Shown here piece by piece: positions 5,174 to 58,243 of a stretch of DNA of 64,000 nt. This DNA comes from Variovorax paradoxus (lineage in GTDB: Bacteria > Pseudomonadota > Gammaproteobacteria > Burkholderiales > Burkholderiaceae_C). The notes beneath the pieces were generated by a model. It searched no databases. It worked only from the letters and a program-made list of their open reading frames with translations, and was not told the DNA's origin. The position numbers and the translations under genes were made by a program. Within the stretch, counting starts at the first letter, position 1; every line of letters starts with the position of its first letter. Where the stretch lies: positions 3,289,001-3,353,000 of the forward strand of contig NZ_CP045644.1 in the NCBI RefSeq assembly GCF_009498455.1, read 5' to 3'.

Positions 5174-5190
5174 CCACCCGCATCGGGTAG
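5174..5190. promoter_or_regulatory. Dyad operator, CYACCC-N5-GGGTRG class
   Basis: CCACCCGCATCGGGTAG is an inverted repeat of six-base arms around five bases. It lies in the 225-base divergent region between the racemase-like gene (start 5075) and the IclR gene (start 5301). It matches seven other sites in this window that also sit in divergent promoters, so it is read as a shared operator. The bound protein is unknown. Confidence 0.55.
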
Positions 5191-5300
5191 GCGGCTTGGA
5201 AAGGGTCTGCGGGCTGCCGCACAATCGTTCCAGCGATCTTCGACATGAACCACCCCATCATTCCGTTCATCCAGCCCGCAGGCGGCAAGAGGGCAGTCCC

Positions 5301-6038
5301 ATGCAAGACGGCATGGTGAAGTCCGCGGTTCGTGTCTTCGAGCTGCTCGAACTGTTCGAGGCCGAGCGCCGGCCGCTGCGGGTCGCCGACATCGTCGACA
5401 AGCTCGGCGTGCCGCAGTCCAGCGTGTCCATGCTCCTCAAGACGCTGGTGGCGCGCGGCTACATGGAGTTCGACAGCGCCCGGCGCGAGTACTGTCCGTC
5501 CGTGCGGATCGCGTTCCTCGGCGACTGGGCAACCCGCCTGCCGGCGCGGCAGGAAGCCATCCAGGACGCGATGCGGCGGCTGGCCAGCGAGACGGGCGAA
5601 ACCGTGCTGCTGGGGCGCCAGAGCGGGGTGCTGATGCAGTACCTGTCCGTCCGCGAATCGCAGCATGCGCTGCGCTTTTCGCTGTCGCCCGGAACGATGC
5701 GGCCGATGCACCGGACCGCGATCGGCATCATGCTCCTGAGCCAGCGCGATGATGACCAGATCGGCCTGCTGCTGCGGCGCTACAACGCGGAGGCCGGCCG
5801 CACGGGCCCGCCCGCGCGGATTGCCGAAACGCTGCGTGCGGTCGCGTTTGCCCGCGAGCACGGGTACTACGAATCCGCCAACCTCGCGACGCCCGGCGCG
5901 GGCGTGATCGCTTCGTTGCTGCCGACGCCGATCCGCGGTCAACGGCTCGGCATCGGCGTCGGCGGGCCGCTCGAGCGCTTGCACAAGCGGCGCAGGCAAC
6001 TGCTCGCCAGCCTGCTCGCGGTCGCAGGGAAGGGCTGA
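5301..6038 (+). CDS. IclR-family transcriptional regulator
   Basis: A 245-residue IclR-type regulator. An N-terminal winged helix (KSAVRVFELLELFEAERRPL, then LGVPQSSVSMLLKTLVARGYM) is followed by a GAF-like effector domain (LASETGETVLLGRQSG and REHGYYESANLATPGAGVIASLL). The start at 5301 is preceded by GAGGG about 8 bases upstream. It is divergent from the racemase-like gene and convergent with the CitE-like gene, 13 bases between stops. IclR proteins usually control an adjacent catabolic operon in response to a small carboxylate or CoA-pathway intermediate, so the racemase-etf genes or the dicarboxylate operon at 7150 are the likely targets. The ligand cannot be told from sequence. Confidence 0.92.
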   Translation: MQDGMVKSAVRVFELLELFEAERRPLRVADIVDKLGVPQSSVSMLLKTLVARGYMEFDSARREYCPSVRIAFLGDWATRLPARQEAIQDAMRRLASETGETVLLGRQSGVLMQYLSVRESQHALRFSLSPGTMRPMHRTAIGIMLLSQRDDDQIGLLLRRYNAEAGRTGPPARIAETLRAVAFAREHGYYESANLATPGAGVIASLLPTPIRGQRLGIGVGGPLERLHKRRRQLLASLLAVAGKG

Positions 6039-6051
6039 GCCGCCCGTCCCG

Positions 6052-6957
6052 TCAACGCGCCGTGGTGGCCCGTGCATCGATGGCAGACCGCACGGCCAGC
6101 AGCCGTTGTGCCTGCGCCAGGTGCAGCCGCTCCACCATCTTTCCGTTCAGGTTGATGACACCCGTCCCGGCGTGTTCCTCGCGGGCAAAGGCGGCGACGA
6201 TGTCGCGGGCTTCGCTCACTGCGGATTCCGACGGCGAGAAGGCCGCGTTCGCGGGCCCGATCTGGGTGGGGTGGATCAGGGTCTTGCCATCGAAAGCCAT
6301 CTTCACCGACTGTCGGGCCTCGACCTCGAAGCCGGCCGCGTCCGAGAAGTCGTTCCAGACCCCGTCGAGCGCGCGCACACCACTGCGCTTGGCCGTCAAC
6401 ACGACGCCCATCAACCAGGGCATCAGGTAGCGCCGGCCGTCGCCGGCAAAGACGCCGGTCTCCTTCGCGATGTCGTTGGTGCCGACGACGAGGCAATCGA
6501 GCCGAGGCGTGGCCGCCAGCCCGGCCTGGACGATGTCGTCCAGCGCGCTCAGTGCGGCAGCGGTCTCGACCATGAGCCAGAGCCGCAGGTCCTGGGCGGC
6601 GCCGTGTCGTGCGGCGGCGTCGGACAGCAACTGGACGTCGCGTGCCGAGCCGATCTTCGGCACCAGGACTGCGTCGGGCCGGCAGTACGCCACTGTGGCC
6701 ATGTCCTGCTCGAACGCCGCGCTGTCGATGGCGTTGACCCGGATGACGGCCTGCTGCGGGCTCGGGCGCGCGCTGGCGAACACCTGGACGAGATGCTGGC
6801 GTGCCGTGTCCTTCATGTCCGGCGCGACCGCATCTTCCAGGTCGTAGATGACCGCATCGCAGTCGAGCGTCGTGGCCTTGGCGAGTGCGCGTGGGTTGGT
6901 GGCCGGCACATACATCGCGGAGCGAAGCGGCCTGAGGGGGAGGGCGTGGGTCGGCAT
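6052..6957 (-). CDS. HpcH/HpaI family CitE-like acyl-CoA lyase
   Basis: A 301-residue CitE/HpcH-HpaI TIM-barrel protein of the class that cleaves malyl-CoA, citramalyl-CoA or citryl-CoA. The N-terminus has LRSAMYVPATNPRALAKA and the acidic Mg-binding motif YDLEDAVAPDMKDTAR; later come LMVETAAALSAL, VGTNDIAKE and KTLIHPTQIGPANAAFSPS. The start at 6957 (MPTHALPLRPLRS) is the first Met ahead of the conserved core. It is divergent from the MmgE/PrpD gene, and two CATCAC-N4-GTGATG dyads lie between them, suggesting shared control. A second CitE paralogue is at 12021. Exact substrate uncertain. Confidence 0.9.
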   Translation of the reverse strand: MPTHALPLRPLRSAMYVPATNPRALAKATTLDCDAVIYDLEDAVAPDMKDTARQHLVQVFASARPSPQQAVIRVNAIDSAAFEQDMATVAYCRPDAVLVPKIGSARDVQLLSDAAARHGAAQDLRLWLMVETAAALSALDDIVQAGLAATPRLDCLVVGTNDIAKETGVFAGDGRRYLMPWLMGVVLTAKRSGVRALDGVWNDFSDAAGFEVEARQSVKMAFDGKTLIHPTQIGPANAAFSPSESAVSEARDIVAAFAREEHAGTGVINLNGKMVERLHLAQAQRLLAVRSAIDARATTAR

Positions 6958-7019
6958 GGGGGTCCGGATAAATGAGGGTTTGAACGGGGAAGAGTGTGGG
7001 CCGGATGGGCTCCTGCGCT

Positions 7020-7035: not shown

Positions 7036-7054
7036 GCGTTCGGCACCTTTCATT

Positions 7055-19925: not shown

Positions 19926-21065
19926 TCAGAGCTTCCTGGCGATCAGGTCGCGCATCACTTCGCTGGTGCCGCCGTAGATGCGGTTCACGCGCGAATCGGC
20001 AAAGGCGCGGGCGACCGGGTACTCCAGCATGTAGCCGTAGCCGCCGTGCAGCTGCACCATCTCGTCGAGCGCCTTGCCCAGCGTCTCGGTGGCGAAGAGC
20101 TTGGCGATGGCCGCTTCTTCGAGCGTGAGGCGCCGGCGCATGTGCTCGCCCAGGTAGTGGTCGACCATCAGGCGCACGGCGATCGCCTGGGTCTTGATGT
20201 CGGCGAGCTTGAACTTGGTGTTCTGGAAGTCCCACACGGTCTGGTTGAAGGCCTTGCGATCCTTCACGTAGTCCAGCGTGTGTTCCAGACAGACCTCGAG
20301 CTTGGCGGCCGCGGTGATCGCGATGGCGAAGCGCTCCTGCGGCAGCTCGCCCATCAGATAGGCGAAGCCCTTGCCTTCCTCGCCCAGGCGGTTGGCCACC
20401 GGCACGCGCACGTTGTCGAAGAAGAGCTCGGAGGTATCCTGCGCCGGGCAGCCGACCTTTTCGAGATTGCGCCCGCGACGGAACCCTGCGCGGTCGGCCT
20501 CCACCACGACCAGGCTCACGCCCTTGGCGCCGGCGGCCGGATCGGTCTTGCACACCAGGATCACCAGATCGGCGTTCAGTCCGTTGCTGATGAAGGTCTT
20601 GCTGCCGTTGATGACGTACTCGTCGCCCTCGCGAACGGCGGTGGTGCGCACCGCCTTCAGGTCGCTGCCGGTGCCGGGCTCCGTCATGGCGATCGCCAGG
20701 ATGTATTCGCCCGCGCAGACCTTGGGCAGCCACCTTTGCTTCTGTTCCTCGTTGCCCAGTCGCTGGAGGTACGGCGCAATGATGTCGGAGTGGACCCGGA
20801 AGCCCGGGCCGCTCACGCCCACGCGGGCGAACTCCTCGGCGAACACGGCCGCGTGGCCGAAGTCGCCGCCGCCGCCGCCGTACTCGGTGGGCAGGGTGAC
20901 GCAGAGCAGGCCTTCGCGGCCGGCCTTGCGCCAGGTCTCGCGGTCGACGCGGCCGGCCTTGTCCCACTCGGCCTGTCTGGGCAGGCATTCGCGTTCCAGG
21001 AACCGGCGCACCGTGGTGCGGAATATCTCGTGATCGTCGCGGAAGATGCTGCGGGTGATTTGCAT
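19926..21065 (-). CDS. Acyl-CoA dehydrogenase (LCAD-like)
   Basis: A 379-residue acyl-CoA dehydrogenase. TEYGGGGGDFGHAAVFAEE, MTEPGTGSDLKAVRTTAVRE, NGSKTFISNG and the C-terminal LHGGYGYMLEYPVARAFAD are family marks. The C-terminal position that is Glu in short/medium-chain enzymes is Gly here (IYGGTSEVM). The base is instead likely the Glu in LPQERFAIAI, the long-chain/isovaleryl arrangement. It is the first gene of a five-gene minus operon and is divergent from an acyl-CoA ligase. It is strongly similar over its full, identical length to the dehydrogenase at 51847. Confidence 0.94.
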   Translation of the reverse strand: MQITRSIFRDDHEIFRTTVRRFLERECLPRQAEWDKAGRVDRETWRKAGREGLLCVTLPTEYGGGGGDFGHAAVFAEEFARVGVSGPGFRVHSDIIAPYLQRLGNEEQKQRWLPKVCAGEYILAIAMTEPGTGSDLKAVRTTAVREGDEYVINGSKTFISNGLNADLVILVCKTDPAAGAKGVSLVVVEADRAGFRRGRNLEKVGCPAQDTSELFFDNVRVPVANRLGEEGKGFAYLMGELPQERFAIAITAAAKLEVCLEHTLDYVKDRKAFNQTVWDFQNTKFKLADIKTQAIAVRLMVDHYLGEHMRRRLTLEEAAIAKLFATETLGKALDEMVQLHGGYGYMLEYPVARAFADSRVNRIYGGTSEVMRDLIARKL

Positions 21066-21149
21066 GGTGGGTTCCGGTGGTCAAAGTAAGACGCATGCGG
21101 CCAACGAAGGCCTCGATGGCAAAGATATCGAGGCGACGCGCCGCAAGGA

Positions 21150-21166
21150 CCCCCCGTGTGGGGTGG
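21150..21166. promoter_or_regulatory. Dyad operator (distal copy, ligase/dehydrogenase promoter)
   Basis: CCCCCCGTGTGGGGTGG has the same six-five-six layout as the other sites; the right arm GGGTGG is perfect and the left arm has one change. It is 85 bases upstream of the dehydrogenase start (21065) and lies in the 246-base divergent region. Confidence 0.45.
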
Positions 21167-21214: not shown

Positions 21215-21231
21215 CCACCCGACGCGGGGGG
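21215..21231. promoter_or_regulatory. Dyad operator (proximal copy, ligase promoter)
   Basis: CCACCCGACGCGGGGGG has a perfect left arm and one change in the right arm. It lies 81 bases upstream of the ligase start (21312) and 65 bases from the copy at 21150. Its layout matches the site at 28827. Confidence 0.45.
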
Positions 21232-21311
21232 CGAAAGCCCGGGGCCACGGTGATTAACTACGTTCCAGGCTGCGCAAGCATTCCTGCAAGCAGCCGATCA
21301 GGAGACAGACG

Positions 21312-23027
21312 ATGGACCCAGTTTTTCCGACGCACCCCGGCGTCATCGAGCGGCCCGAGAGCCCGTTGCACCTCGACCGGCAATACGCCCGCGACGGCGT
21401 GCCGGAGCAAGTGCACGTGCCGGAAACCAGTCTGTTCGCCAATCTCGAGATGTCGGCCCGGCGCTTCCCCGCGAAGCCGGCCATTCATTTCTACGGTGCC
21501 ACGCTCACCTATGGCGCCCTGCTGCAAGAGGTCGAGCACATGGCGGGCTACCTGCAGCGCGTTTGCGGCGTAGAGCGCGGAGACCGCGTGCTGCTGTTCA
21601 GCCAGAACTGCCCGCAGTTCATCAGCGCCTATTTCGCCATCCTGCGCGCCGATGCCGTCGTGGTGCCCGTGAACGCCATGCTGCTGGAAGACGAGCTGCG
21701 GCACATCGTGGCGGACAGTGGCGCCGTGGCGGGCTTCTGCGCGCAGGAGCTGGCCGGCCATCTGGCGCCGCTGGTGGGCACGACATCGCTGCGGCATGTG
21801 GTCGTGCATGCCTACGGCGACGCGCTGCCCGCCGACGACGCGGGCTTCACCGTGCCTGACTGGCTGCGCGAGCGCGCCCATGCCGAGGCCGGGTTTGCGG
21901 GCGGCGTGCGATGGCAGGACGCCGTGGCGGCGCAGGCCCGGCCCGGTCCGGCCATGGCCGGGCCCGACGACCTGTGCATGCTGCCGTACACCTCGGGCAC
22001 GACGGGCGCGCCGAAGGCATGCATGCACACCCACCGCACGGCCATGTCCTCGGTGGCTGGCGCCCGGCTGTGGCGGCACACGAACGCCGAAGCGATCTTC
22101 CTGGCCTCGGCGCCGTTCTTTCATCTGCTCGGGCTGCAGAACTGCGTCAACGGCGTGGTCTACAGCGGCGCCACCGTCGTGCTGCTGCCGCGCTGGGACC
22201 GGGAGACGGCCGCCGAGTTGATCGAGCGCTACCGGGTCACGTGCTGGGGCGCGCCGCCGCCGATGCTGGTCGACTTCTTTGCACAGCCGGGCATCGAGGC
22301 GCGCGACCTGCGCTGCCTGGTGCAGGTCGGCGGCGGCGGTGCGGCCATGCCCGAGGGCACCGCGCGGCTGATGCGCGAACGCTATGGCCTGACGTACAGC
22401 GAAGGCTACGGGCTGACCGAAACCGCCTCCTTCCTGCTGGCCAATCCGCTGCATCGCCCCAAGCCCGGCTGCCTCGGCGTGCAGACCTTCGGCGTGGACG
22501 CGCGGATCATCGACCCCGAGACCCTGAAAGCGCTGCCGCAGGGCGAGACCGGGGAGATCGTGGTTCACGGTGCGCAGGTCATGCGGGGCTACTGGAACCA
22601 GCTGGAGGCCAACGCAGAGAGCTTTCTCGTCATCGACGGCAAGCGCTTCTTCCGCACCGGCGACCTCGGCTGCATGGACGAAGACGGCTACTTCGCCATG
22701 CGCGACCGCCTGAAGCGAATGATCAATGCCTCGGGCTACAAGGTCTGGCCGGCGGAGGTGGAGGCCATGTTGCACGGCCACCCCGCCATCCAGGAATCGT
22801 GCGTGATCGCCAGTCGCGATGAGCGGCGCGGCGAAACCGTCAAGGCCGTGGTGGTGTTGCGCGCAGATGCACGCGACACCAACGAGGCGGACATCCTGGC
22901 GTGGTGCCGCGAGACCATGGCCAGCTACAAGGCCCCGCGCCTGGTGGCGATCGTCGACCGATTGCCGCGCTCGGCGACCGGGAAGGTCGCATGGCGCGAG
23001 CTGCAGGACGCCGAGATGCGGGCGTAG
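21312..23027 (+). CDS. AMP-forming fatty-acyl/aryl-CoA ligase
   Basis: A 571-residue ANL-superfamily acyl-CoA synthetase. The P-loop-like motif is LPYTSGTTGAPKACMHTH; then EGYGLTETASF, FRTGDLGCMDEDGYFAMRDR, and the C-terminal catalytic lysine in SATGKVAWREL. It would activate an incoming carboxylate to its acyl-CoA through an acyl-AMP. GGAG lies 9 bases upstream of the ATG. It is divergent from the dehydrogenase at 19926 and starts a plus-strand group with an SDR, a dehydrogenase and a MaoC protein. The ligase at 37211 is a clear paralogue sharing the N-terminal lead and long identical runs. Confidence 0.93.
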   Translation: MDPVFPTHPGVIERPESPLHLDRQYARDGVPEQVHVPETSLFANLEMSARRFPAKPAIHFYGATLTYGALLQEVEHMAGYLQRVCGVERGDRVLLFSQNCPQFISAYFAILRADAVVVPVNAMLLEDELRHIVADSGAVAGFCAQELAGHLAPLVGTTSLRHVVVHAYGDALPADDAGFTVPDWLRERAHAEAGFAGGVRWQDAVAAQARPGPAMAGPDDLCMLPYTSGTTGAPKACMHTHRTAMSSVAGARLWRHTNAEAIFLASAPFFHLLGLQNCVNGVVYSGATVVLLPRWDRETAAELIERYRVTCWGAPPPMLVDFFAQPGIEARDLRCLVQVGGGGAAMPEGTARLMRERYGLTYSEGYGLTETASFLLANPLHRPKPGCLGVQTFGVDARIIDPETLKALPQGETGEIVVHGAQVMRGYWNQLEANAESFLVIDGKRFFRTGDLGCMDEDGYFAMRDRLKRMINASGYKVWPAEVEAMLHGHPAIQESCVIASRDERRGETVKAVVVLRADARDTNEADILAWCRETMASYKAPRLVAIVDRLPRSATGKVAWRELQDAEMRA

Positions 23028-25395: not shown

Positions 25396-25863
25396 ATGCG
25401 ACATTTCAGCAGCCTCGAAGCACTGCAATCTTGCGTCGGCCAGGACATCGGCGAGAGCGACTGGGTCCTGATCGACCAGAAGCGCATCGACCTTTTTGCC
25501 GAAGCCACCGGCGACCATCAGTGGATCCATGTCGACCCGGCGCGAGCGCAGAGCGGCCCGTACGGCGGCACGATTGCGCATGGCTTCCTGACGCTCTCGC
25601 TGCTGCCGATGCTGTCTGCCCAGGCGATGAAGATCGAAGGCACCAAGCTCGGCGTGAACTACGGCCTGAACAAGGTCCGCTTTCCGTCGCCGGTGCGCGT
25701 GAACAGCCGGGTTCGCGCCCGCATCCGCCTGCTGGCCATGGAGGCCTTGCCGCCGCTGGGCGCGCTGTCGGGTTTCCAGATCACGATGGAGGTCACCATC
25801 GAGTGCGAGGGGGCCGACAAGCCGGCCGCCGTGGTGGAGAGCGTGGCGCGGCGCTACGCCTGA
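25396..25863 (+). CDS. MaoC-family (R)-specific enoyl-CoA hydratase
   Basis: A 155-residue hot-dog hydratase of the NodN/MaoC type. The hydratase motif is close to canonical: FAEATGDHQWIHVDPARA (Asp and His of the dyad), then GGTIAHGFLTLSLLPML. It probably hydrates the enoyl-CoA made by the dehydrogenase 24 bases upstream, giving the hydroxyacyl-CoA for the SDR at 23190. Its stop overlaps the 3' end of the convergent LuxR gene by 10 bases. Confidence 0.92.
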   Translation: MRHFSSLEALQSCVGQDIGESDWVLIDQKRIDLFAEATGDHQWIHVDPARAQSGPYGGTIAHGFLTLSLLPMLSAQAMKIEGTKLGVNYGLNKVRFPSPVRVNSRVRARIRLLAMEALPPLGALSGFQITMEVTIECEGADKPAAVVESVARRYA

Positions 25864-28685
25864 TCCGGGCCGCCCCACTCGAGGTCGCGCAGCCGCGCGG
25901 CCGCCTCATCCCGGCTGGCCACGCCCAGCTTGCCGTAGATCTTGCGCAGGTGCCACTTCACGGTCTCGGGTGACAGGCCCAGCATGCGGGCGATCTTCTT
26001 GTTGGGCAGGGCCTGTGCCAGCAGGCGCAGCACTTCCGCTTCGCGTTCGCTCAGGTCCAGCCCCTGCAGGCCCGGTGCCGTTTGCGGCGCGCGCTGGGTG
26101 CCGGCGGGGGGCGTCGATGCGTCTCGGGCCGGCGTGCGTTGCGCGGCGGCCAGGCGGGCCACGTAGAAACTCAGCACCGGGTCCAGGGGCTCGCCCTGTT
26201 CGATCTCGCCGATCAGCTGCAGTGCGTCGGGGTCCGTGTCGAGCAGGCTGCGCACCAGGCCCAGCCGGTGCCCTTGCCGCAAGGCCACGGTCATGTGGCG
26301 ACGTGCGGCGTCCACGCGCTGGCGGCGAAAGTCGACGAAGGCGTTCTGCAGCCGCAGCAGCGCCACGCGGCGCTGCCAGCCGCGCGCGTCGCACAGGGCG
26401 ATCAGCGGCTCTAGCCGGGCCGCGGCACCGTGGAGGTCTTCGTTCGCAATGCACCAGCGCACGTGGGCGTGCGCCGTCACCGCGTGGATCTCGTCCCGTG
26501 CACTCGGGCCGGCCGGCCGGTGCCGTGCATCGACCGTGTCGAGCCGGGCCAGGCAGGCGTCGGCCGCATCGAGTTCGCCGCACTGCAGATGCCGATGCAC
26601 GCGCTCGGCGAGCGCGTGCGCCAGCAGCCGGTCCAGGCCGAGCTGCACGGCGTACTCCTCGAGGCGATCGAGGCAGGCGAAGGTGTCCAGCGGATGGCCG
26701 GCGACCCAGTGCGCAGCCGACAGGACGGTCAGCACCTTCAGGACCGAGTCCGGGATCGACACCCGCTCCAGGATGTCGAGCCGGTCTTCCAGGAGTTTGA
26801 TCGCGCCCTCGGCGTCGTTGTGCTCGTACAGGACGTCGCCGAGCAACGCCGTGGCGAAGCACGCGGGGTCGGTGTGGGCGTCGTCGCGTTGCTCGGCCTT
26901 GTGCAGCACATCACGGCAGATCCGTTCGACCTGGATCATCTGGCCTTCGAGTGCGTAGCTGAAGCCCACCATGCAGCGGCCACCGAGGCTGCCGATGGTG
27001 GTGCCCGTCAGCGGCGAGCCTTCGAACAGCAGGGGCGTCGCATCGAGCTGAACGCTGCGCGCGCGTTCGTACTCGCCCCGGTGCATGTAGAGCCACGACA
27101 GCAGCATCCGGTGCGCACCGAGCGCCATGCCGTCGGCCTCCGCGGGAGGTTGCAGCAGCTGCGGAAGGATCGCCATGGCCGCGTCGGTGTCGTCGCTCTG
27201 CAGGGCCAGCACGCCGCGCAGCAGGAACAGCGCGTTGCGCGAGACGATGTCGTCGGGCGCGATGTCGGCCTGCAGGCGCTCGATGCCGGCGGCGGCGGCC
27301 TCGAACTCGCGCGCGTAGAGCTGCATGCGCAAGGTCCAGATGCGCAACGCGGGGCGTGCCTGCACCTGTTCGGCCGGCAGCAGGCGAACCAGCCGGACCA
27401 CCTGGCGCAGGTCGCCCTGGCTGAACAGGAGCTTCGCCGATTGCTGGACCATGTCGGCCGCTGCCGCCGGTTCTCCCGCCGCCACCGCGTGGCGCACGGC
27501 GTCCTCGATGTGGCCGTGCGCGTGAAACCACTGCCAGGCGGCAGTGTGCACGCGGTGTCGTTGCATCTCGCTGAGCGCGCGGAAGCGTTCGAGCAGCGTT
27601 TCTCGCAGCAGCGGATGCAGGCGGTACCAGGGCTCGCGCTCGGCGCCCTCGAGCGGGACGATGAACAGGTTGTCGCTTTCGAGGCGCGCCAGCAGGGTGA
27701 CCACGTCGGTCTGCTGCAGCGGTGGTTCCGTCAGCACCGTGCACAGCGGTGCGCAGAAGCGGCTGCACACCGCCGCGCGCACCAGGAGTTCGATCTCGGC
27801 CGCCGACAGGTGCGACAGCACTTCGCGTTCGAAGTACTGTGCGAACGCGCCTGCGTTGTGCACATGCTCCCGCACCGGGGCTTCGGCCGGCGGGTCGCCG
27901 CGCGCCTGCTGCTTCTTTCGCTTTCGCAGGTTGGAGAACAGAAGCAGGCCGGCCACCCAGCCATCGGTCAGCTCGTGCAGATGCCGCGCGTCGCGCGCCG
28001 CGATCTCGCCGAGCTGCGCCTTCAGGAACTGCCCGGACTCGGCCAGCGTGAAGCGCAGGTCGCCCTGGTGCAACTCGAGCACGAGCTCCTGGTCTCGCAG
28101 CCGGGCCAGCGACAGCGGCACCGCGGTGCGCGACAGCAGCACCAGGTGCAGGTTGGGCGGCGCGTAGTCCAGCAGGCATTGCAGCGCCTCGTGAATGCGC
28201 TCGCAGCCGATGTGGTGCAGGTCGTCGACCACCAGGGTCAGCTCGCGCGGATGTGCGGCGATGCCGTGCAGCAGGCAGATGATCGTGCGCTCGACGGCCT
28301 CGGTGTCGGTCCCCCGGCCGCCCAGCATGGCGGCCTCGCGCGCGATGGCCGGGTCCACCTGCTTCAGGCTGGCGACCAGGCTGTCGAGCCAGCGTGTCAG
28401 TTCGTCGTCGTCCGCGCCGAGGCTGAGCCATGCCACGTCGAAGCCCAGCAGCAACAGGGCCTGGCGCCAGGCCACCAGGGTGGCGCTCTTGCCGCAGCCC
28501 GCGGGGCCTTGCAGCACGACGCAGCGCCGGTGCCGCGCCTCGGTCAGCCGGGCCAGCAGCCGTTCGCGCGCGACGACGCGCGTGGCGCCGCGGGGCGCAA
28601 GGTGGCTGTCGCCGGCGATCGTGTGGGTGTCGGGCGCCACGCCTTGCGCGGCGTGCGATGGACTGGAGGGAAGAGGGGGCTGCAT
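25854..28685 (-). CDS. MalT-like (LAL) LuxR-family ATP-dependent regulator, copy 1
   Basis: A 943-residue signal-transduction ATPase regulator of the MalT/LAL type. Walker A is GPAGCGKS at residues 60-67; Walker B is LTLVVDDLHH near 150. A winged-helix region (YRLHPLLRETLLERFRAL) and a long TPR-like helical sensor region follow. The C-terminal LuxR helix-turn-helix reads LSEREAEVLRLLAQALPNKK, then MLGLSPETVKWHLRKIYGKL. The frame is open far upstream, but family similarity to copy 2 (53083) begins near MQPPLPSSPS at 28685; the ribosome site there is weak, so the start is uncertain. It is divergent from a MaoC/Bug operon, with a dyad operator between. Such regulators switch on with ATP plus an inducer, plausibly an acyl-CoA or acid here. 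Confidence 0.9.
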   Translation of the reverse strand: MQPPLPSSPSHAAQGVAPDTHTIAGDSHLAPRGATRVVARERLLARLTEARHRRCVVLQGPAGCGKSATLVAWRQALLLLGFDVAWLSLGADDDELTRWLDSLVASLKQVDPAIAREAAMLGGRGTDTEAVERTIICLLHGIAAHPRELTLVVDDLHHIGCERIHEALQCLLDYAPPNLHLVLLSRTAVPLSLARLRDQELVLELHQGDLRFTLAESGQFLKAQLGEIAARDARHLHELTDGWVAGLLLFSNLRKRKKQQARGDPPAEAPVREHVHNAGAFAQYFEREVLSHLSAAEIELLVRAAVCSRFCAPLCTVLTEPPLQQTDVVTLLARLESDNLFIVPLEGAEREPWYRLHPLLRETLLERFRALSEMQRHRVHTAAWQWFHAHGHIEDAVRHAVAAGEPAAAADMVQQSAKLLFSQGDLRQVVRLVRLLPAEQVQARPALRIWTLRMQLYAREFEAAAAGIERLQADIAPDDIVSRNALFLLRGVLALQSDDTDAAMAILPQLLQPPAEADGMALGAHRMLLSWLYMHRGEYERARSVQLDATPLLFEGSPLTGTTIGSLGGRCMVGFSYALEGQMIQVERICRDVLHKAEQRDDAHTDPACFATALLGDVLYEHNDAEGAIKLLEDRLDILERVSIPDSVLKVLTVLSAAHWVAGHPLDTFACLDRLEEYAVQLGLDRLLAHALAERVHRHLQCGELDAADACLARLDTVDARHRPAGPSARDEIHAVTAHAHVRWCIANEDLHGAAARLEPLIALCDARGWQRRVALLRLQNAFVDFRRQRVDAARRHMTVALRQGHRLGLVRSLLDTDPDALQLIGEIEQGEPLDPVLSFYVARLAAAQRTPARDASTPPAGTQRAPQTAPGLQGLDLSEREAEVLRLLAQALPNKKIARMLGLSPETVKWHLRKIYGKLGVASRDEAAARLRDLEWGGPDQA

Positions 28686-28826: not shown

Positions 28827-28843
28827 CCACCCGCGCCGGGGGG
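28827..28843. promoter_or_regulatory. Dyad operator in the LuxR/MaoC divergent promoter
   Basis: CCACCCGCGCCGGGGGG matches the six-five-six dyad with a perfect left arm and one change on the right, the same variant as at 21215. It is roughly midway in the 252-base region between the LuxR start (28685) and the MaoC start (28938). Confidence 0.45.
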
Positions 28844-28937
28844 TCTCGCCGAACAGCCCCGCCCGTAACCTGAATCCCATGCGAAAACTTAGCTCATCGC
28901 GAACCGGGCCGAGGGCCTGGCACCCAGGAGTGCGGAC

Positions 28938-37039: not shown

Positions 37040-37065
37040 GGTCCGCAAGCAGTGCCGTGCCGGCA

Positions 37066-37082
37066 CTACCCCCGGTGGGTGG
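37066..37082. promoter_or_regulatory. Dyad operator (DUF2889-proximal copy)
   Basis: CTACCCCCGGTGGGTGG fits the CYACCC-N5-GGGTRG dyad in both arms. It lies 27 bases upstream of the DUF2889 start and 45 bases from the next copy, in the 171-base divergent region. Confidence 0.6.
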
Positions 37083-37110: not shown

Positions 37111-37127
37111 CCACCCGATCGGGGTGG
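37111..37127. promoter_or_regulatory. Dyad operator (ligase-proximal copy), best match
   Basis: CCACCCGATCGGGGTGG has fully complementary six-base arms around GATCG; flanking G and C extend it to GCCACCC-N5-GGGTGGC. It is 84 bases upstream of the ligase start (37211). Confidence 0.65.
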
Positions 37128-37210
37128 CCGCGTCGGTGCAGGCGCGCGTTCTACTCACCTTCATCCCAAAGACCCCAAGACCCAGACACGAGGCCGACCC
37201 GGACCCCACC

Positions 37211-38995
37211 ATGCAGGCAGAACCCCGCGCCACACACCCTTGCCCCACGCCCGCGGGCGTGGCCGAGCGCCCCGTCGGCGCCTTGTGCATCGACCCCGTG
37301 CACGCCCGCGGCGGCTTGCCGCGCGAGGCTCACATTCCCGAGATCAGCCTGTTCTGCAACCTCGAGACCTCGGCTCGCCGCTACCCGGCCAAGACTGCGG
37401 TGCAGTTCTTCGGCAAGGCCGTGCGTTACGACGAGCTGCTGGCCGAGGCCGAAGCCATGGCCGGTTACCTGCAGCACGCGTGCGATGTGGCGCCGGGCGA
37501 CCGCGTGCTCGTGTTCAGCCAGAACTGCCCGCAGTTCATCGCGGCCTACTTCGCCATCCTGCGGGCCGACGCGGTGTTCGTGCCGGTCAACGCCATGTTG
37601 CTGCGCGACGAACTCGAACACATCGTGCAGGACAGCGGCGCGGTGGCGGCCTTCGTGGCCAGTGAACTGCTCGAACGCATCGCGCCGCTCGTGGGCACCG
37701 GCGCGCTGCGCCAGCTCGTGGTGCATGCCTACGGCGACGCGCTCGGCAATGCAGACGATGATGCCGGCCTCGTGCCGCCCGACTGGGTGCGCGCGCGCAT
37801 CGCCGACGTGGTGCTGCCGCCTGCTGCCGTGTCCTGGCAGGCCGCGCTGGCGCAGCAGCAGGTGCCGCGGCTCCACCGCGCCGGCCCAGACGACCTGTGC
37901 ATGCTGCCCTACACCTCGGGCACCACCGGCAAGCCCAAGGCCTGCGTGCACACGCACCGCACGGTGATGACCTCCTGCGTCGGCTCTTCGCTGTGGCGCC
38001 GCACGCATCCGTCGTCGGTGTACCTTGCCGTGGCACCGCTGTTCCACCTGCTGGGCCTGCAGAACAACGTCAACTCGGCGATCTTCTGGGGCGGCACCAT
38101 CGTGCTGATGCCGCGCTGGGACCGCGAGGCCGCAGCGCTGCTCATCGAGCGCCACCGCGTGAGCTTCTGGGCCGCGCTGCCGGCCATGCTGGTCGACTTC
38201 TTCGCGCAGCCCGGCATCGAGCAGCGCGACCTGTCGAGCCTGGCCGTGGTCACCGGCGGCGGGGCCGCCACGCCGCAGCATGTGAACGACATCCTCAAGA
38301 ATCGCTACGGCCTGGACTACATCGAGGGCTACGGGCTGACCGAAAGCGCCAACTTCCTGTGCGCCAACCCGATGCACCAGCCGAAGAAAGGCTGCCTTGG
38401 CGTGCCCACCTTCGGTGTCGACCTGCGCATCGTCGATCCGGAGACGCTGGTGCCGCTGCCGCGAGGCAAGGCCGGTGAGATCGTGGTGCACGCCGCGCAG
38501 ATCATGCTGGGCTACTGGAATCATGCGCAGGCCAATGCCGAGAGCTTCTTCGTGCGTGACGGCAAGCGCTTCTTCCGTACCGGCGACCTCGCCAGCATGG
38601 ACGAAGAGGGCTACGTCTTCATGCGCGACCGCCTGAAGCGAATGATCAATGCCTCGGGCTTCAAGGTCTGGCCGGCCGAGGTCGAGGCCTCCCTGCACAC
38701 GCACCCGTCGATCCTCGAAGCCTGCGTGATCGCCGCGCCCGATGCGCGGCGCGGTGAAACGGTCAAGGCCGTGGTCACGCTGCGTGACGGCTGCAGCGAC
38801 GACAGCGCCAGCCTGCTGGCCTGGTGCCGGGAACACATGGCGGCCTACAAGGCGCCGCGGATCGTGCAGATCGTCGACGCGCTGCCCAAGTCGGCCACCG
38901 GGAAGATCGCCTGGCGTGAACTGCAGGAGCGGGAAGCGCGCGCTGTGCAGGCTGCAGAAAACAAAGAAGCCGAAGCAGAAGCACCGACCCACTGA
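37211..38995 (+). CDS. AMP-forming acyl-CoA ligase, paralogue of the 21312 gene
   Basis: A 594-residue ANL acyl-CoA synthetase: LPYTSGTTGKPKACVHTH, EGYGLTESANF, FRTGDLASMDEEGYVFMRDR and the catalytic lysine in SATGKIAWREL. It closely follows the 21312 protein, including FSQNCPQFI and MLVDFFAQPGIE, with an extra acidic tail (ENKEAEAEAPTH). The start at 37211 (MQAEPRATHP) is chosen because similarity starts soon after; the open frame upstream crosses the operator sites. It is the first of four plus-strand genes with 3-17 base gaps. Confidence 0.92.
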   Translation: MQAEPRATHPCPTPAGVAERPVGALCIDPVHARGGLPREAHIPEISLFCNLETSARRYPAKTAVQFFGKAVRYDELLAEAEAMAGYLQHACDVAPGDRVLVFSQNCPQFIAAYFAILRADAVFVPVNAMLLRDELEHIVQDSGAVAAFVASELLERIAPLVGTGALRQLVVHAYGDALGNADDDAGLVPPDWVRARIADVVLPPAAVSWQAALAQQQVPRLHRAGPDDLCMLPYTSGTTGKPKACVHTHRTVMTSCVGSSLWRRTHPSSVYLAVAPLFHLLGLQNNVNSAIFWGGTIVLMPRWDREAAALLIERHRVSFWAALPAMLVDFFAQPGIEQRDLSSLAVVTGGGAATPQHVNDILKNRYGLDYIEGYGLTESANFLCANPMHQPKKGCLGVPTFGVDLRIVDPETLVPLPRGKAGEIVVHAAQIMLGYWNHAQANAESFFVRDGKRFFRTGDLASMDEEGYVFMRDRLKRMINASGFKVWPAEVEASLHTHPSILEACVIAAPDARRGETVKAVVTLRDGCSDDSASLLAWCREHMAAYKAPRIVQIVDALPKSATGKIAWRELQEREARAVQAAENKEAEAEAPTH

Positions 38996-51846: not shown

Positions 51847-52986
51847 TCAGAGTTTTCTGGAGATGAGGTCGCGCTGCGTTTCGTTGCTTCCGCCGAACAC
51901 GCGCGTGATGCGGTAGTCGGTGAAGGCGCGGGCAATCGGGTACTCCAGCATGTAGCCGTAGCCACCATGCAGCTGCACCATGTCGTCGATGCACTTCCAC
52001 AGCGTTTCGGTCGCGAAGAGCTTGGCGATGGCCGCCTCCTGCACGCTGATGCGCCGGCGCATGTGCTCGCCGATGTAGTAGTCGACCAGCGTGCGGGCTG
52101 CCACCGCCTGTGCCTTGATGTCGGCCAGCTTGAACTTGGTGTTCTGGAAGTCCCACACCGTGCCGTCGAAGGCCTTGCGCTCCTTCACGTACTCCAGCGT
52201 CTGCTCCAGCAGGCGCTCGAGCTTGGCGGCGCTGTACACGGCGATGATCAGGCGCTCCTGCGCCAGCTCCTGCATCAGGCAGACGAAGCCCTTGTTCTCT
52301 TCGCCCAGCAGGTTGTCGACCGGCACGCGCACGTTGTCGAAGAACAGCTCGGTGGTGTCGGCGGCCGGCTGGCCCACCTTGTCGAGCTTGCGCCCGCGCC
52401 GAAACCCCGCGCGGTCGGCTTCGACCATGATCAGGCTCACGCCCTTGCTGCCGGCGCTCGGGTCGGTCTTGCAGGCCACCAGCACCATGTCGCAGTTCAG
52501 GCCGTTGCTGATGAAGGTCTTGCTGCCGTTGATGACGTACTCGTCGCCGTCGCGCACCGCGCTCGTGCGGATCGACTTCAGGTCGGAGCCCGTGCCCGGC
52601 TCGGTCATGGCGATGGCCATGATGGTCTCGCCGCGGCAGATCTTGGGCAGCCAGCGCTGCTTCTGTTCCTCGGTGCCGAAGCGCACGATGTACGGCGCGG
52701 TGATGTCCGAATGCACCGACAGGCTGAAGCCCGAGACACCCGAGCGGTGCAGCTCTTCGGCCAGCACGCAGGAGTGGCCGAAATCGCCGCCGCCGCCGCC
52801 GTATTCGGTCGGCACGGTGACGCACAGCAGCCCTTCGCGGCCGGCCTTGAGCCAGGTCTCGCGGTCGGTGCGGCCGGCGGCGTCCCACGCGGCCTGGCGC
52901 GGCAGGCATTCGCGCTCGAAAAATCGCCGTGCGGTGTCGCGCAGCATCTCGTGGTCTTCGCGGTACACGGTGCGGTGGATGTTCAC
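51847..52986 (-). CDS. Acyl-CoA dehydrogenase, paralogue of the 19926 gene (GTG start)
   Basis: A 379-residue acyl-CoA dehydrogenase of exactly the same length as its paralogue at 19926 and alike throughout (RETWLKAGREGLLCVTVPTE, MTEPGTGSDLKSIRTSAVRD, LHGGYGYMLEYPIARAFTD). It starts with GTG at 52986, with AAGGAG six bases upstream. The C-terminal position is Gly (VFGGSNETQ), so the base is likely the Glu in LAQERLIIAV. It is the first gene of the nine-gene minus module and is divergent from the second LuxR regulator, with a dyad operator between. Confidence 0.94.
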   Translation of the reverse strand: MNIHRTVYREDHEMLRDTARRFFERECLPRQAAWDAAGRTDRETWLKAGREGLLCVTVPTEYGGGGGDFGHSCVLAEELHRSGVSGFSLSVHSDITAPYIVRFGTEEQKQRWLPKICRGETIMAIAMTEPGTGSDLKSIRTSAVRDGDEYVINGSKTFISNGLNCDMVLVACKTDPSAGSKGVSLIMVEADRAGFRRGRKLDKVGQPAADTTELFFDNVRVPVDNLLGEENKGFVCLMQELAQERLIIAVYSAAKLERLLEQTLEYVKERKAFDGTVWDFQNTKFKLADIKAQAVAARTLVDYYIGEHMRRRISVQEAAIAKLFATETLWKCIDDMVQLHGGYGYMLEYPIARAFTDYRITRVFGGSNETQRDLISRKL

Positions 52987-53037
52987 GGGGTCTCCTTGTC
53001 TTGCAGCGATTCTGGGCGCCGCACCCCCTTAACCCCA

Positions 53038-53054
53038 CTACCCAGATCGGGTGG
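53038..53054. promoter_or_regulatory. Dyad operator in the dehydrogenase/LuxR divergent promoter
   Basis: CTACCCAGATCGGGTGG fits CYACCC-N5-GGGTRG in both arms. It lies 52 bases upstream of the dehydrogenase GTG (52986) and 29 bases upstream of the LuxR start (53083) in a gap of only 96 bases, so one bound dimer could affect both genes. Confidence 0.6.
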
Positions 53055-53082: not shown

Positions 53083-55887
53083 ATGCAGAACAAGCCACTT
53101 TCCCCCTCGCGTTCGCCCGACGCCTCCGGGCTCAAGGCCCTGGTCGCCACCAAGATGGTCCCCCCCCGCAGCGCCGGGCGCGCCGTGGCCCGCGAGGCGT
53201 TGCTGGCCCGGCTGATGGAGGGGCGCCGCCGCCGTTGCGTCGTGCTGCAGGGCCCGGCCGGTTGCGGCAAGACCACCACCCTGGTCGCGTGGCGACAGGC
53301 GCTGCTGCCGCTGGGCTTCGACGTCGCCTGGCTCAGCCTCACGCCCGAGGACAACGAGCCCACCCGCCTGCTGGACTACCTGCTGGCCAGCGTGGCGCAG
53401 GTGGCACCGGTCGCCACCCAGGAAGCCGCCGACTACGCCGGCCGCGGCGTCGACAGCGAGGCCGTCGAGCGCGCGCTGATCGCGCTGGTGCGCGGCATTG
53501 CCGCCCATCCGCGCGAGCTGGTGCTGGTGCTCGACGACCTGCAGCACCTCATGGACGCGCGCCTGCACGAGGCGCTGCAATGGCTGCTGGACTACGCGCC
53601 GGGCAACCTGCACCTGGCCATGGCTTCGCGCGGCGCGCTGCCGCTGTCGCTCGACCGCCTGCGCGCCGAAGGCCAGGTGCTCGAGATCGACGTGCGCGAG
53701 CTGCGCTTTTCGCCGGCCGAGTCCGAGCGCTTCCTGCAGTCGCAACTGGGGAGCATCGCGCCGCGCGATGCGCTGGCGCTGCACGAGCTGTGCGACGGCT
53801 GGGCCGCCGGCCTGCAGCTGCTGGCCATCAACTGGAAGAAGCGTCGCCAGGAACTGGGTGTGGGCCAGGGCCAGGTGCCAGGCGACTTCGTGCGCGCCCA
53901 CGTGCAAGACCCGCAGGCCTTCGCCGCCTATTTCGAGAAGGAAGTGCTGTCGCACCTGGCGCCGGCCGATCTCGATCTGCTGATCAGCGTGTCGGCCTGC
54001 AGCCGCTTCTGCGCGCCGCTGTGCGCGGCCTTGCTCGGCCGGCCCGTGGACGACCCCGCCACGGCGCCGCTGCTGGCGCGGCTGGAGGGCGAGAACCTGT
54101 TCATCGTGCCGATCGAGACCAGCGCCGAGCGCGAGACCTGGTACCGCCTGCACCCGCTGCTGCGCGAAACCCTGCGCGGGCGCCTGCGCCAGCGCAGCGA
54201 GGCCGGGCAACGCGCGGTGCACCGCATCGCGTGGCAGTGGTTTCGCGACCACGGCCTCATCGACGAGGCCGTGCGCCAGGCCGTGGCCGCGGGCGAGGGC
54301 GCGGCGGCCGCGGCGCTGGTCGAGAAGTCGGCCCATGGCCTGGCCGTGCGCGGCGAGCTGCGCAAGCTGATCGGCCTTGTGCGCCAGCTGCCGCCGGCCG
54401 AAGTGCAGGCGCGCATCGGGCTGCGGCTGTGGATGATCCGCATAGAACTGTTCGCGCGGGAGCTGGATGCTTTCTCTGCTCACATCGCGCGCCTGCGGCC
54501 CGACATTCCGCCGGACGACGCCATCAGCCACTACTGGCTCACGCTGCTCGAAGCCTCGCTGGCCTTGCAGCGCGACGACACCGACGCCGCCATGGCGCTG
54601 CTGCCGCGCCTGCAGGCTGCGCCCGAAGGCGCGGACGCGCTGGCCACGGGGGCGCGCGACAACATCCTGTCCTGGCTGTACATGCACCGCGGCGACTACG
54701 AGCGCGCGCGGCGCGTGCAGCAGGACAACCCGATCCGCCTGATCGACGGCGAGCCCTTGCGCGGCAGCTCGTCGGGCACGCTGCAAGGCCGCAGCCTGGC
54801 CGGCCTGAGCTACGCCATGGAGGGCCGCATGACCCAGGCCGAGCGTGTCTACCGCGACGTGCTGCGCGAAGCCAACGAGGGCGGCAGTGCCTGCGTCGAT
54901 GCCACCTACCTGTCGACCGCGCTGCTGGGCGAGGTGCTCTACGAGCACGGCGAGACCGAGGCCGCGGTGGCGCTGCTCGAAGACCGTGTGGACGCGCTGG
55001 AGCGCGTGTCCATTCCCGACTCGGTGCTGCGCGTGCACCGCTCGCTCGCTGCCGCGCACTGGGCGGCCGGGCGACGGATGGAAGCCATGGCCTGGCTGGA
55101 GCGGCTGGAAGACTACAGCGCCGCGTTGGGCCTGGACCGGCTGCTGGTGCACAGCCTCACGATGCAGGTGCACTACCGCCTGCAGATGGGCGACCCGGCC
55201 GCCGCCGAAGTGGCGCTGTCGCGCGCCAACGAGATCGACGCGCGCCATGCCGATGCCGCGCACAGCGCACTCGGCGAGATTGCCGTGGTGGCCGAGCGCG
55301 CGCGCATCCGCTGGGCGCTTGCCCGCGGCGACACGGACGATGCGGCGCGCAGGATCGAAGCGCTGATAGCGAACATCGCGCTGCGCGGACGGCAACGGTT
55401 GATCGCGCAGATGAAGCTGCTGCAGGCCCTGATCGAGCAACGCAGGGGCAGGGCGCAGGCCTCGCGGGAATGCACGCTGGCGGCCTTGCGCAGCGGCCAC
55501 CGGCTGGGTCTGGTGCGCAGCCTGCTCGACGCGGACCCGGCGGTGATGACGCTGGTGGCGGAAGTGGCGAAGGACGCATCGCTGGACCCGGTGCTCGGTT
55601 TCTATGCAGAGCGCCTGGGACGCGCGGGACTCGTGCCTGTCGCTGCCGATGCGACGGTCTCGGTGGGTGTGGCCCCCGAGGCGGGCAGGCGCCCGGTCGA
55701 GCCGTTGAGCGACCGCGAGCGCGACGTGCTGGGCTTGCTCGCGCAGGCGATGCCCAACAAGAAGATCGCGCTGGCACTGGGGCTGTCCATCGACACCGTG
55801 AAATGGCATCTGAAGAACATCTACGGGAAGCTTGGGGTGGCGGGGCGGGACGAGGCAGTGGCGTGGATGCTGGGGAGGCAGGGGTAG
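53083..55887 (+). CDS. MalT-like (LAL) LuxR-family ATP-dependent regulator, copy 2
   Basis: A 934-residue MalT-type regulator, clearly paralogous to the 25854-28685 gene. Walker A is GPAGCGKT at residues 57-64, Walker B is LVLVLDDLQHL, then YRLHPLLRETLRGRLRQR, a long TPR-like region, and the C-terminal LuxR domain (LSDRERDVLGLLAQAMPNKK, LGLSIDTVKWHLKNIYGKLG). Possible starts are 53083 (MQNKPLSP) and 53068 (MPARDMQN); both have weak ribosome sites. The much longer open frame upstream is antisense to the dehydrogenase and is ignored. It is divergent from the nine-gene module and is its probable activator; a dyad operator lies 29 bases upstream. Confidence 0.92.
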   Translation: MQNKPLSPSRSPDASGLKALVATKMVPPRSAGRAVAREALLARLMEGRRRRCVVLQGPAGCGKTTTLVAWRQALLPLGFDVAWLSLTPEDNEPTRLLDYLLASVAQVAPVATQEAADYAGRGVDSEAVERALIALVRGIAAHPRELVLVLDDLQHLMDARLHEALQWLLDYAPGNLHLAMASRGALPLSLDRLRAEGQVLEIDVRELRFSPAESERFLQSQLGSIAPRDALALHELCDGWAAGLQLLAINWKKRRQELGVGQGQVPGDFVRAHVQDPQAFAAYFEKEVLSHLAPADLDLLISVSACSRFCAPLCAALLGRPVDDPATAPLLARLEGENLFIVPIETSAERETWYRLHPLLRETLRGRLRQRSEAGQRAVHRIAWQWFRDHGLIDEAVRQAVAAGEGAAAAALVEKSAHGLAVRGELRKLIGLVRQLPPAEVQARIGLRLWMIRIELFARELDAFSAHIARLRPDIPPDDAISHYWLTLLEASLALQRDDTDAAMALLPRLQAAPEGADALATGARDNILSWLYMHRGDYERARRVQQDNPIRLIDGEPLRGSSSGTLQGRSLAGLSYAMEGRMTQAERVYRDVLREANEGGSACVDATYLSTALLGEVLYEHGETEAAVALLEDRVDALERVSIPDSVLRVHRSLAAAHWAAGRRMEAMAWLERLEDYSAALGLDRLLVHSLTMQVHYRLQMGDPAAAEVALSRANEIDARHADAAHSALGEIAVVAERARIRWALARGDTDDAARRIEALIANIALRGRQRLIAQMKLLQALIEQRRGRAQASRECTLAALRSGHRLGLVRSLLDADPAVMTLVAEVAKDASLDPVLGFYAERLGRAGLVPVAADATVSVGVAPEAGRRPVEPLSDRERDVLGLLAQAMPNKKIALALGLSIDTVKWHLKNIYGKLGVAGRDEAVAWMLGRQG

Positions 55888-57021: not shown

Positions 57022-57070
57022 CCCGGTGACCCAGGGCAGCGCTTCCGATGCCCATTGAACCCTTGCGCCT

Positions 57071-58072
57071 CTAGAGTTCACCGGGGTGCGCTGTGGCGGG
57101 GACCACGGCGTCTGCCACCGTTTGGGCGGGCAATGTCGTTTGCGGCGTCCTGATGATGTCGAACATGAAGACATCAGGCCGTCCATAGTGACCTGCGCCA
57201 TCCGCGAAGAACTTGGCAAAGGGGATGAGGGAGAGGTCAAGGTCCGCGTAGAGCACCTTCTCCGTGTCGCGATGCGGCTCGGCCAGCCACTTTCCATTGG
57301 GTCCCATGAAGCCCGTGAAGCCACCGCCAAGTGTGGGCGCGTCGGGGCCGGGCTTGACACCAAGACGCTCGATGATCTCCTCGGAGATGCGCCCTTGGAC
57401 CAGGATCACATAGGTTTGCGCACAGATGGCATGGGCTGCTGCGAGGGTCGTCGCGTAGTGGTCGAAGTCGCCCGCGTTGGGGTCGCCATGCGTTGCATTG
57501 ATGGCAGGCCAGGAAGCCACATGGATCTGCTCTCCCATGGCCGCGAGCGCGTGCCTGTTGAGATCCATGCTGTGCTCGAAGCAGATCAATCCGCCGACCT
57601 TGGCGAAACCCGTGTCGATCACGAAGACGTCACGCCTGTCGCCGCGGCCCCAGACCGTGCGCTCGGCGTTGGTCGGGTGCAGTTTGCGGTGCTTTGCGGC
57701 GAGGCGTCCCTCCGGGGAGAACCAGGCCATGGTGTTGTAGAGCGTTCCGCCCTCGCGTTCGTTGACGCCCAGGCAGACCCAGACGCCCGCCTCTTGTGCG
57801 GCGGCAGCGATGGCATTCGCCTGGGGGCTAGGGAATTCGATCGCATGGCGGTAAAGCTCCGCGAAGAGCGGGGCCGCGTATTTGGACGTGTGAGACCAGA
57901 TCCAGTGCGGGTACCCGGGCAGGAAGGTCTCGGGGAATGCGACAAGCCTCGCGCCGCCAGCCCCCGCTTGATGAATGAACTCGACAGTTCGGCGGACGCC
58001 GGCCTCGAGGTCGAGGAAGGGGGCGGCAGCGTGAACGGCTGCGACGCGAATGGTTTCGAAGGAAGTCGTCAT
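57071..58072 (-). CDS. Nitrilase-family C-N hydrolase
   Basis: A 333-residue nitrilase-superfamily enzyme with the Glu-Lys-Cys triad: Glu48 in VAFPETFLPGYPHWIW, Lys130 in KHRKLHPTNAERTVWGRGD and Cys164 in GGLICFEHSMDLNR. The HPTNAERTVWGRGD stretch is typical of true nitrilases, which convert a nitrile to its acid and ammonia. The usual CWEH is CFEH here. The start is 58072 (MTTSFETIRVAAVHAA). It is divergent from an acyl-CoA ligase with a dyad operator between, which suggests that the acid it releases is then activated to its CoA ester. Confidence 0.92.
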   Translation of the reverse strand: MTTSFETIRVAAVHAAAPFLDLEAGVRRTVEFIHQAGAGGARLVAFPETFLPGYPHWIWSHTSKYAAPLFAELYRHAIEFPSPQANAIAAAAQEAGVWVCLGVNEREGGTLYNTMAWFSPEGRLAAKHRKLHPTNAERTVWGRGDRRDVFVIDTGFAKVGGLICFEHSMDLNRHALAAMGEQIHVASWPAINATHGDPNAGDFDHYATTLAAAHAICAQTYVILVQGRISEEIIERLGVKPGPDAPTLGGGFTGFMGPNGKWLAEPHRDTEKVLYADLDLSLIPFAKFFADGAGHYGRPDVFMFDIIRTPQTTLPAQTVADAVVPATAHPGEL

Positions 58073-58226
58073 GGCATGAAGGAAGTGAATGGCGAGCGAA
58101 GGTGCGGGCGCATATTCCGCCTGCGAGCGCACTGCGGGCTATCAGAATCCGCTCGCCGCCATCGAAATCTTCTCTTCCTGTTAATGCGGCACTGAATGTC
58201 GGCGTTCGCCACCGAACAGGCACGCC

Positions 58227-58243
58227 CCCCCCGATGCGGGTGG
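58227..58243. promoter_or_regulatory. Dyad operator in the nitrilase/ligase divergent promoter
   Basis: CCCCCCGATGCGGGTGG has a perfect right arm and one change on the left; its last 14 bases (CGATGCGGGTGG and the CC before them) equal the site at 5174 read on the other strand. It is 85 bases upstream of the ligase start (58328) and 155 from the nitrilase start (58072). Confidence 0.5.

Follow-up and report, generated by a model that had tools for sequence, protein, structure and literature searches.

A 17-bp dyad as candidate operator of MalT-like LuxR regulators in a catabolic island of Variovorax paradoxus

Known LuxR-type systems and the regulators of the island

The subject of this study is a 17-bp dyad, CYACCC-N5-GGGTRG, and the MalT-like LuxR regulators (LALs) encoded beside it in a stretch of 64,000 nucleotides from Variovorax paradoxus (assembly GCF_009498455.1, contig NZ_CP045644.1, positions 3,289,001 to 3,353,000; hereafter the window). 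Three described systems are closest, each in one respect; for the DNA-binding domain it is NarL (see below). By protein, compared by description, the nearest is AlkS of Pseudomonas putida GPo1, the best-known catabolic regulator of this type that was found. It is a LuxR/MalT-type activator of alkane genes for which the available part of PMC8784404 describes a 20-bp inverted-repeat operator upstream of a catabolic promoter and a positive feedback that acts through PalkS2, the promoter of AlkS itself. AlkS shares with the LALs the kind of protein and is an activator of aliphatic-compound degradation; it differs from them as far as that text goes, since the dyad is 17 bp long and, in a sequence test, the −10 sequence that accompanies it rarely faces an LAL gene (4/40, with 10/86 for control sides). 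By geometry, the nearest is the ACTU motif recognized by CrbR in the acetate use of Pseudomonas, according to the available part of PMC5715377 an imperfect inverted repeat of 17 positions at −52 to −36, directly before a sigma-70 promoter and required for activation. Its length and position match those of the dyad, but its letters are different, and CrbR is a LuxR-family two-component response regulator, which the LALs are not. RdmA is a TetR protein in the available text of PMC9973270 and hence not relevant.

The two LALs of the window, g24 (25854..28640, minus strand) and g48 (53083..55887, plus strand), are 56% identical and both carry a C-terminal GerE (LuxR) helix-turn-helix (60.4 bits in g24 and 57.1 bits in g48, cut-off 23.5; residues 874-928 of g48) and a TPR_MalT region (53.4 and 49.2 bits, cut-off 45). 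The N-terminal ATPase, AAA_16, scores above its cut-off of 32.6 in g48 (43.1 bits) and under it in g24 (26.3 bits), where it lies in the expected region; a receiver domain was not found in either protein in the Pfam domain search. The overall architecture, GerE plus TPR_MalT, is that of Escherichia coli MalT, but the two proteins score 238.4-258.8 with the MalT equivalog NF003420 (NCBIfam), under the cut-off of 537. The MalT box has another sequence than the dyad and is not a palindrome. The nearest structure in the PDB to the LAL helix-turn-helix is E. coli NarL (1je8 and others), and 1je8 presumably contains DNA. The NarL half-site, TACYYMT, resembles YACCC; its heptamers lie 2 bp apart, one base more than in the dyad, and NarL differs from the LALs in having a receiver domain.

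The host genome encodes four LAL paralogues within 3314893-3361804: g48 and three proteins that share 49-56% identity with it. After these, the best match to g48 in that genome is at 30%. The two that are not in the window lie 3-9 kb past its end, and an exact dyad at 3359015 sits between this divergent LAL gene pair (3356229-3361804, locus L114). The core of the recognition helix, TVKWHL, is almost invariant among 81 LALs; TVKW is present in all four island proteins, and the 30% paralogue reads TVRTHLRN. In the literature searched, which left most subscription journals uncovered, no prior description of the operator, of its target set or of the near-absence of regulator-facing promoters was found. 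The protein family and mode of action are of known kinds, while the operator, its targets and the rarity of regulator-facing promoters appear to be undescribed.

The dyad, its promoter layout and its link with LAL genes

Within the window the exact dyad occurs four times against 0.02 expected from 100 dinucleotide shuffles, and with at most one mismatch it occurs at 10 places against 0.46. Eight of these ten places are intergenic, compared with an intergenic share of 8.4% (p ~1e-7). They are the eight sites listed in a preliminary description of this DNA as four exact and four with one change, all between divergent genes; the pattern search recovered each of them at its position, in six intergenic regions that are all flanked by divergent genes. 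The four imperfect sites carry the same type of change, a C at half-site position 3. A matrix built from 144 sites, with the host genome and its near-identical relative G047 left out, placed the ten window matches as the ten top scores (11.0-21.7, the next being 6.0) and gave nine places at a score of at least 14, where 30 shuffles averaged 0.03; its training sites were chosen with the same pattern, so that it checks the places and not the pattern. Gene calls came from a codon-model script and their starts are approximate.

Across the host genome (7,288,087 bp) the exact dyad was found at six places, compared with two for the backward control. Five of the six fall within 3294174-3359031, four in the window and one 6 kb past its end (3359015); the sixth, at 62414, coincides with a called gene's 3' end. 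At the one-mismatch level the whole genome holds 66 matches against 62 for the control, which amounts to no genome-wide enrichment of the relaxed pattern, but 12 of the 66 lie inside the 68-kb island (0.65 expected for 72 kb). A genome-wide regulon was rejected on the distribution of the exact sites: the regulon is local.

The same element was then followed through the best 80 of 201 confirmed stretches with a relative of g48 (79 of them distinct), which span Pseudorhodoferax, Variovorax, Paraburkholderia, Caballeronia, Cupriavidus, Pseudomonas, Hydrogenophaga and others. In these 79 LAL loci the exact arms stand 74 times at a spacer of 5, compared with 0-7 times at each other spacer from 0 to 15. 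Coding and intergenic occurrences were counted in 100 loci, some of them overlapping (the 79 LAL loci, the window and 20 further stretches). They hold 104 exact sites, 80 after removal of redundant contexts: 41 divergent intergenic, 38 tandem intergenic and one at a locus edge. Not one of the 80 lies within a called gene, although about 88% of the sequence is coding (intergenic ~11.5%); the preliminary description, too, had noticed no full match inside genes. Among non-redundant one-mismatch sites 13/88 are intragenic, and the changes in the other 75 are patterned, with half-site position 3 to C (30), 5 to T (25) and 6 to T (10) prevailing. Within 350 bp of 81 non-redundant LAL genes, the exact dyad was present at 36 and a dyad with at most one mismatch at 63, while five permuted-arm controls gave 0-4/81. 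An unbiased count of inverted dyads with 6-base arms likewise ranked CCACCC-N5-GGGTGG first, both upstream of LAL genes (7/81; best of 10 shuffle sets 3) and downstream of them (8/81; best shuffle set 4); with 5-base arms the downstream lead over shuffles is slight, 11 against 10.

A −10 sequence stands at a fixed distance from the dyad. An alignment of promoters first revealed this phasing, and the whole set of sites was then used to test it, with control sides and LAL-unlinked sites as checks. The first base of TANNNT lies 23 bp past the dyad in 32 of the 114 gene-facing flanks of the 80 exact sites, and in at most four at every other offset from 1 to 90. At tandem promoters, which serve a single gene, the phased −10 is on the gene side in 28/38 and on the opposite side in 1/38, the intergenic background being 5.6%. 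Counted back from the −10 box rather than from mapped transcription starts, the dyad occupies about −51 to −35. Oriented base frequencies between dyad and −10 show no strong −35 hexamer, with weak preferences only (first two bases, 19-20). A fixed −10 without a strong −35 hexamer is the layout of an activator-dependent promoter. At divergent promoters, exact sites with a phased −10 on 0, 1 and 2 sides number 6, 22 and 8. In seven double promoters, five of which are the g34/g35 promoter of the window and its relatives, a scoring −10 at offset 23 points outward in 13/14 cases and inward in 0/14; two dyads are present because each direction has its own.

The genes faced by the phased −10 fall into recognizable classes. 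For exact and one-mismatch sites with a −10 at offset 22-24, it faces acyl-CoA dehydrogenases in 28/30, acyl-CoA ligases in 26/33, enoyl-CoA hydratases in 8/8, TctC receptors in 6/6 and CoA-transferases in 11/20 cases, together 79/97 for a subset of classes that was chosen for testing after the table had been seen. Unassigned genes (36/57), DUF2889 genes (3/9) and six single genes (3/6) complete the set; the total for non-LAL genes is 121/169, against the 4/40 of LAL genes and 10/86 of control sides. Positive autoregulation of LAL genes, suggested by dyads shortly upstream of them, was rejected as a general rule, the phased −10 facing the other gene, and neither flank of the dyad at 3359015, between two LAL genes, gave a scoring −10 at offset 23. 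The operon driven from a dyad beside an LAL gene appears to be the neighbouring catabolic one.

As a control independent of LAL homology, 121 genomes were searched both with the pattern and with g48, an LAL being called at E 1e-100 or better. The 22 LAL-positive genomes of the same genus, host included, hold 66 exact dyads against 32 control matches (mean 3.0 versus 1.45), and the 51 genomes of the genus without LAL hold 32 against 73 (mean 0.63 versus 1.43); the two groups differ with p 9e-8 for dyads and 0.90 for the control. Dyad number tracks LAL copy number across these 73 genomes (Spearman 0.62; control −0.03). An LAL gene stands within 300 bp of 24 of the 66 dyads (0.07 expected), in 18/22 genomes, and within 60 kb of 43 (1.75 expected). 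A contrast set of 18 exact sites, fetched by choice, included 17 not near an LAL: 11 of these are in called genes and six are not (L144 has no gene call), and a scoring −10 at the phased offset accompanies 2/17, in one case on the wrong side. The LAL-linked site in L149 is intergenic, with AAGAAT at the phased position pointing away from the LAL gene. One 17-mer, CCACCCGGGGCGGGTGG (L148 1564, genome G009), recurs identically in at least 11 other genomes of the genus, with and without LAL; it is background, and the one copy read is intragenic.

Conservation at orthologous promoters was counted over distinct upstream contexts, window excluded, with a dyad of at most one mismatch within 350 bp. 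It is strong for the CoA-transferase gene g4 (20/23 relatives at 70% identity or more), the acyl-CoA dehydrogenase gene g47 (17/20) and the divergent pair g34/g35 (4/6 and 4/5, with two copies 42-45 bp apart), and partial for g50 (3/7) and g19 (11/40). Relatives of the LAL genes have an upstream dyad in 14/33 (g24) and 12/20 (g48) cases, and no relative of g49 was found among the compared loci. In alignments at g4, g34/g35 and g47 the arms are constant while spacers and flanks have diverged. Conservation at orthologues, by which the preliminary description proposed to judge its sites, therefore holds for the g4, g34/g35 and g47 promoters, holds in part for g50 and g19, and fails for g25 and g20.

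A proposed mechanism and the alternatives

These data have led us to propose that the dyad very probably serves LAL proteins as their activator site, at promoters that lack a normal −35 box. The LAL, with its N-terminal ATPase, TPR region and C-terminal GerE-type helix-turn-helix, would have the 17-bp dyad as its predicted operator, and a dimer of the helix-turn-helix would place one monomer on each half-site (CYACCC/GGGTRG) at about −51 to −35 of a sigma-70-type promoter. The bound LAL would recruit RNA polymerase where a −10 is present and the −35 is unclear, and would switch on neighbouring operons for acyl-CoA ligases, acyl-CoA dehydrogenases, CoA-transferases, MaoC and DUF2889 proteins. 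The dyad itself being symmetric, the side that bears the −10 box would set the direction, and double promoters would use one dyad for each. The signal may be ATP together with a pathway intermediate, perhaps an acyl-CoA or a free acid.

The preliminary description had tied most of the window into a single regulon under one regulator. The idea of a shared operator passes the two checks that the description had set, on coding sequence and on conservation, and the regulon proves to be local; a single regulator is not established, because the island has four LAL paralogues, and a small LAL family sharing one operator is the likelier arrangement. We consider it possible, though doubtful, that all four paralogues act through this one operator and perhaps differ in the intermediate that they sense, several inputs then converging on a single set of promoters, with the sensors either outside the feedback loop or held down by their own dyad while the adjoining catabolic operon is on.

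Several observations weigh against LAL binding and activation at the dyad. Two of the ten window matches, at 12728 in g12 (an HpcH-type aldolase) and at 53276 in g48, are intragenic, and the −10 boxes for the sites at 37066 and 58227 are weak. Upstream dyads are present in 0/6 relatives of g4 below 70% identity, 0/41 relatives of g25 and 0/2 relatives of g20, and a dyad with at most one mismatch was not found in the flanking 350 bp of 18/81 LAL genes. The LAL loci were picked by LAL homology, and their genomes and flanks are related, which makes the p-values too optimistic. The backward control outnumbers the dyad in LAL-free congeners (73 versus 32) and is thus an imperfect yardstick, and 23 of the 66 exact dyads in LAL genomes lie more than 60 kb from an LAL or on another contig. 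G085, a genome of another family, has six exact dyads against 0 for the control and no LAL match at 1e-30; three of its six (L134-L139) are intragenic, and one has a gene-facing −10 at the phased place (L136). Finally, the exact dyad is absent from G019, a genome with three LALs. The two of its LALs that were read carry TVKFHLKN and TVKWNIRN, and the idea that the recognition helix is altered where the dyad is absent failed, as the gene of the TVKF protein is followed 18 bp on by a dyad with one mismatch; the helix comparison is weak support for LAL binding. This case, together with the lack of conservation at g25 and g20, has led us to grade LAL activation slightly lower, and binding by another protein slightly higher, than we would otherwise have done.

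That another regulator binds the dyad and the LAL link is passive co-location is improbable. The IclR protein g5, named in the preliminary description beside the two MalT-like regulators, is the obvious candidate: it adjoins the dyad at 5174, and IclR proteins bind palindromes. But a g5 relative (at least 50% identity) occurs in one fetched locus only (L052), where the 350 bp ahead of it contain no dyad even with one mismatch allowed; G047 keeps the g4 dyad next to a relative of g29, not an IclR gene; and no −10 box lies on the g5 side of the 5174 dyad. IclR was rejected as the binder since it does not co-occur with the dyad in the fetched loci of relatives, and the correlation of dyad number with LAL copy number also speaks against passive co-location. 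The two MalT-like proteins are the best supported of the candidates.

The converse assignment, in which the LAL binds the dyad as a repressor, is equally hard to favour. The dyad abuts the −35 region, where a bound protein might block polymerase, and the site at 53038 is only 28 bp before an LAL start, so that repression of the LAL gene itself is possible. The fixed −10 without a strong −35 is instead an activator-dependent design, and the available parts of the descriptions of AlkS (PMC8784404) and CrbR (PMC5715377) present the first as an activator and the second as activating from an inverted repeat at −52 to −36. That the eight sites are chance matches in a GC-rich window is extremely unlikely, since the near-equality of the genome-wide one-mismatch count (66) and its control (62) is outweighed for the set by the way in which the sites cluster, their preference for intergenic DNA, their conservation and the phased −10. 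An individual site with one mismatch might be due to chance, most readily 28827 or 58227.

Promoters of the island and their significance

With LAL activation as the preferred reading, each site can be given a predicted direction. The exact dyad at 5174..5190 has TCTACT at offset 23 on its left only (5146..5151, minus strand) and is predicted to drive g4, a family III CoA-transferase (3912..5051, minus; Pfam PF02515), leftwards; g4 is followed by what we take to be EtfB and then EtfA. In the near-identical island of G047 (L116, 11847-15546), g4 and its dyad are followed by relatives of g29, g31 and g32 and not by an IclR gene, and that island is rearranged or has a segment missing. The one-change site at 21150..21166 (half-site position 3 to C), with TATCTT at offset 23 on the left (21122..21127, minus), is predicted to drive the acyl-CoA dehydrogenase gene g19 (19926..21065, minus) leftwards as the first of a run, g19-g15, that also holds a thiolase, an SDR, an Ltp-like thiolase and a ChsH2-type OB protein. 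Its one-change partner at 21215..21231, with TTAACT at offset 23 on the right (21254..21259, plus), is predicted to drive the acyl-CoA ligase gene g20 (21312..23027, plus) rightwards.

Next to the LAL gene g24, the one-change dyad at 28827..28843 has TAACCT at offset 23 on the right (28866..28871, plus) and none on the left, and is predicted to drive not g24 but the MaoC/FAS1-type hydratase gene g25 (28938..29378, plus) rightwards. Because g25 relatives give no support, the case for this site consists of its sequence, its place and its −10. The double promoter has two exact dyads. The left one (37066..37082) lies towards the DUF2889 gene g34 (36428..37039, minus), with GACCAT (37038..37043, minus) as a weak −10-like sequence that overlaps the called start of g34, the true start being possibly downstream; weak as it is, this sequence is kept in L116 and L123, is one base off in L121 and reads GAGCAT in L127. 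The right one (37111..37127) is predicted to drive the acyl-CoA ligase gene g35 (37259..38995, plus), first of g35-g38, through TCTACT (37150..37155, plus), and TCTACT or TTTACT stands at equal offset in four orthologous promoters.

The exact dyad at 53038..53054, 28 bp ahead of the LAL gene g48, is predicted to drive g47 (51847..52986, minus), first of the g47-g39 run, leftwards from CAGAAT at offset 24 (53009..53014, minus). Within g48 the codons of the Walker A motif, GPAGCGKTTTLVAW, coincide with the one-mismatch match at 53276-53292, which gives that match a coding explanation. The last site, with one change (58227..58243), is predicted to drive the acyl-CoA ligase gene g50 (58328..59908, plus) from a weak CCTACT at offset 24 (58267..58272, plus); the start of g50 is most likely 58328, moved from 58499. 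The island as a whole encodes several acyl-CoA ligases and acyl-CoA dehydrogenases, MaoC hydratases, SDRs, thiolases with a ChsH2-type OB partner and TctC receptors, where the SDRs, an enoyl-CoA hydratase and some of the TctC proteins are presumed identities. These genes point to CoA-dependent degradation by beta-oxidation with steroid side-chain-like parts, and to no more than that.

Taken as a candidate operator and promoter rule, a dyad with a −10 starting 23 bp later would apply to a large group of catabolic regulators that has been little studied and occurs in Burkholderiales and some Pseudomonas. The rule lets target genes and the direction of transcription be predicted from sequence, and makes the sensor ligand searchable by a simple reporter. 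Many unnamed acyl-CoA gene clusters would come under one control system.

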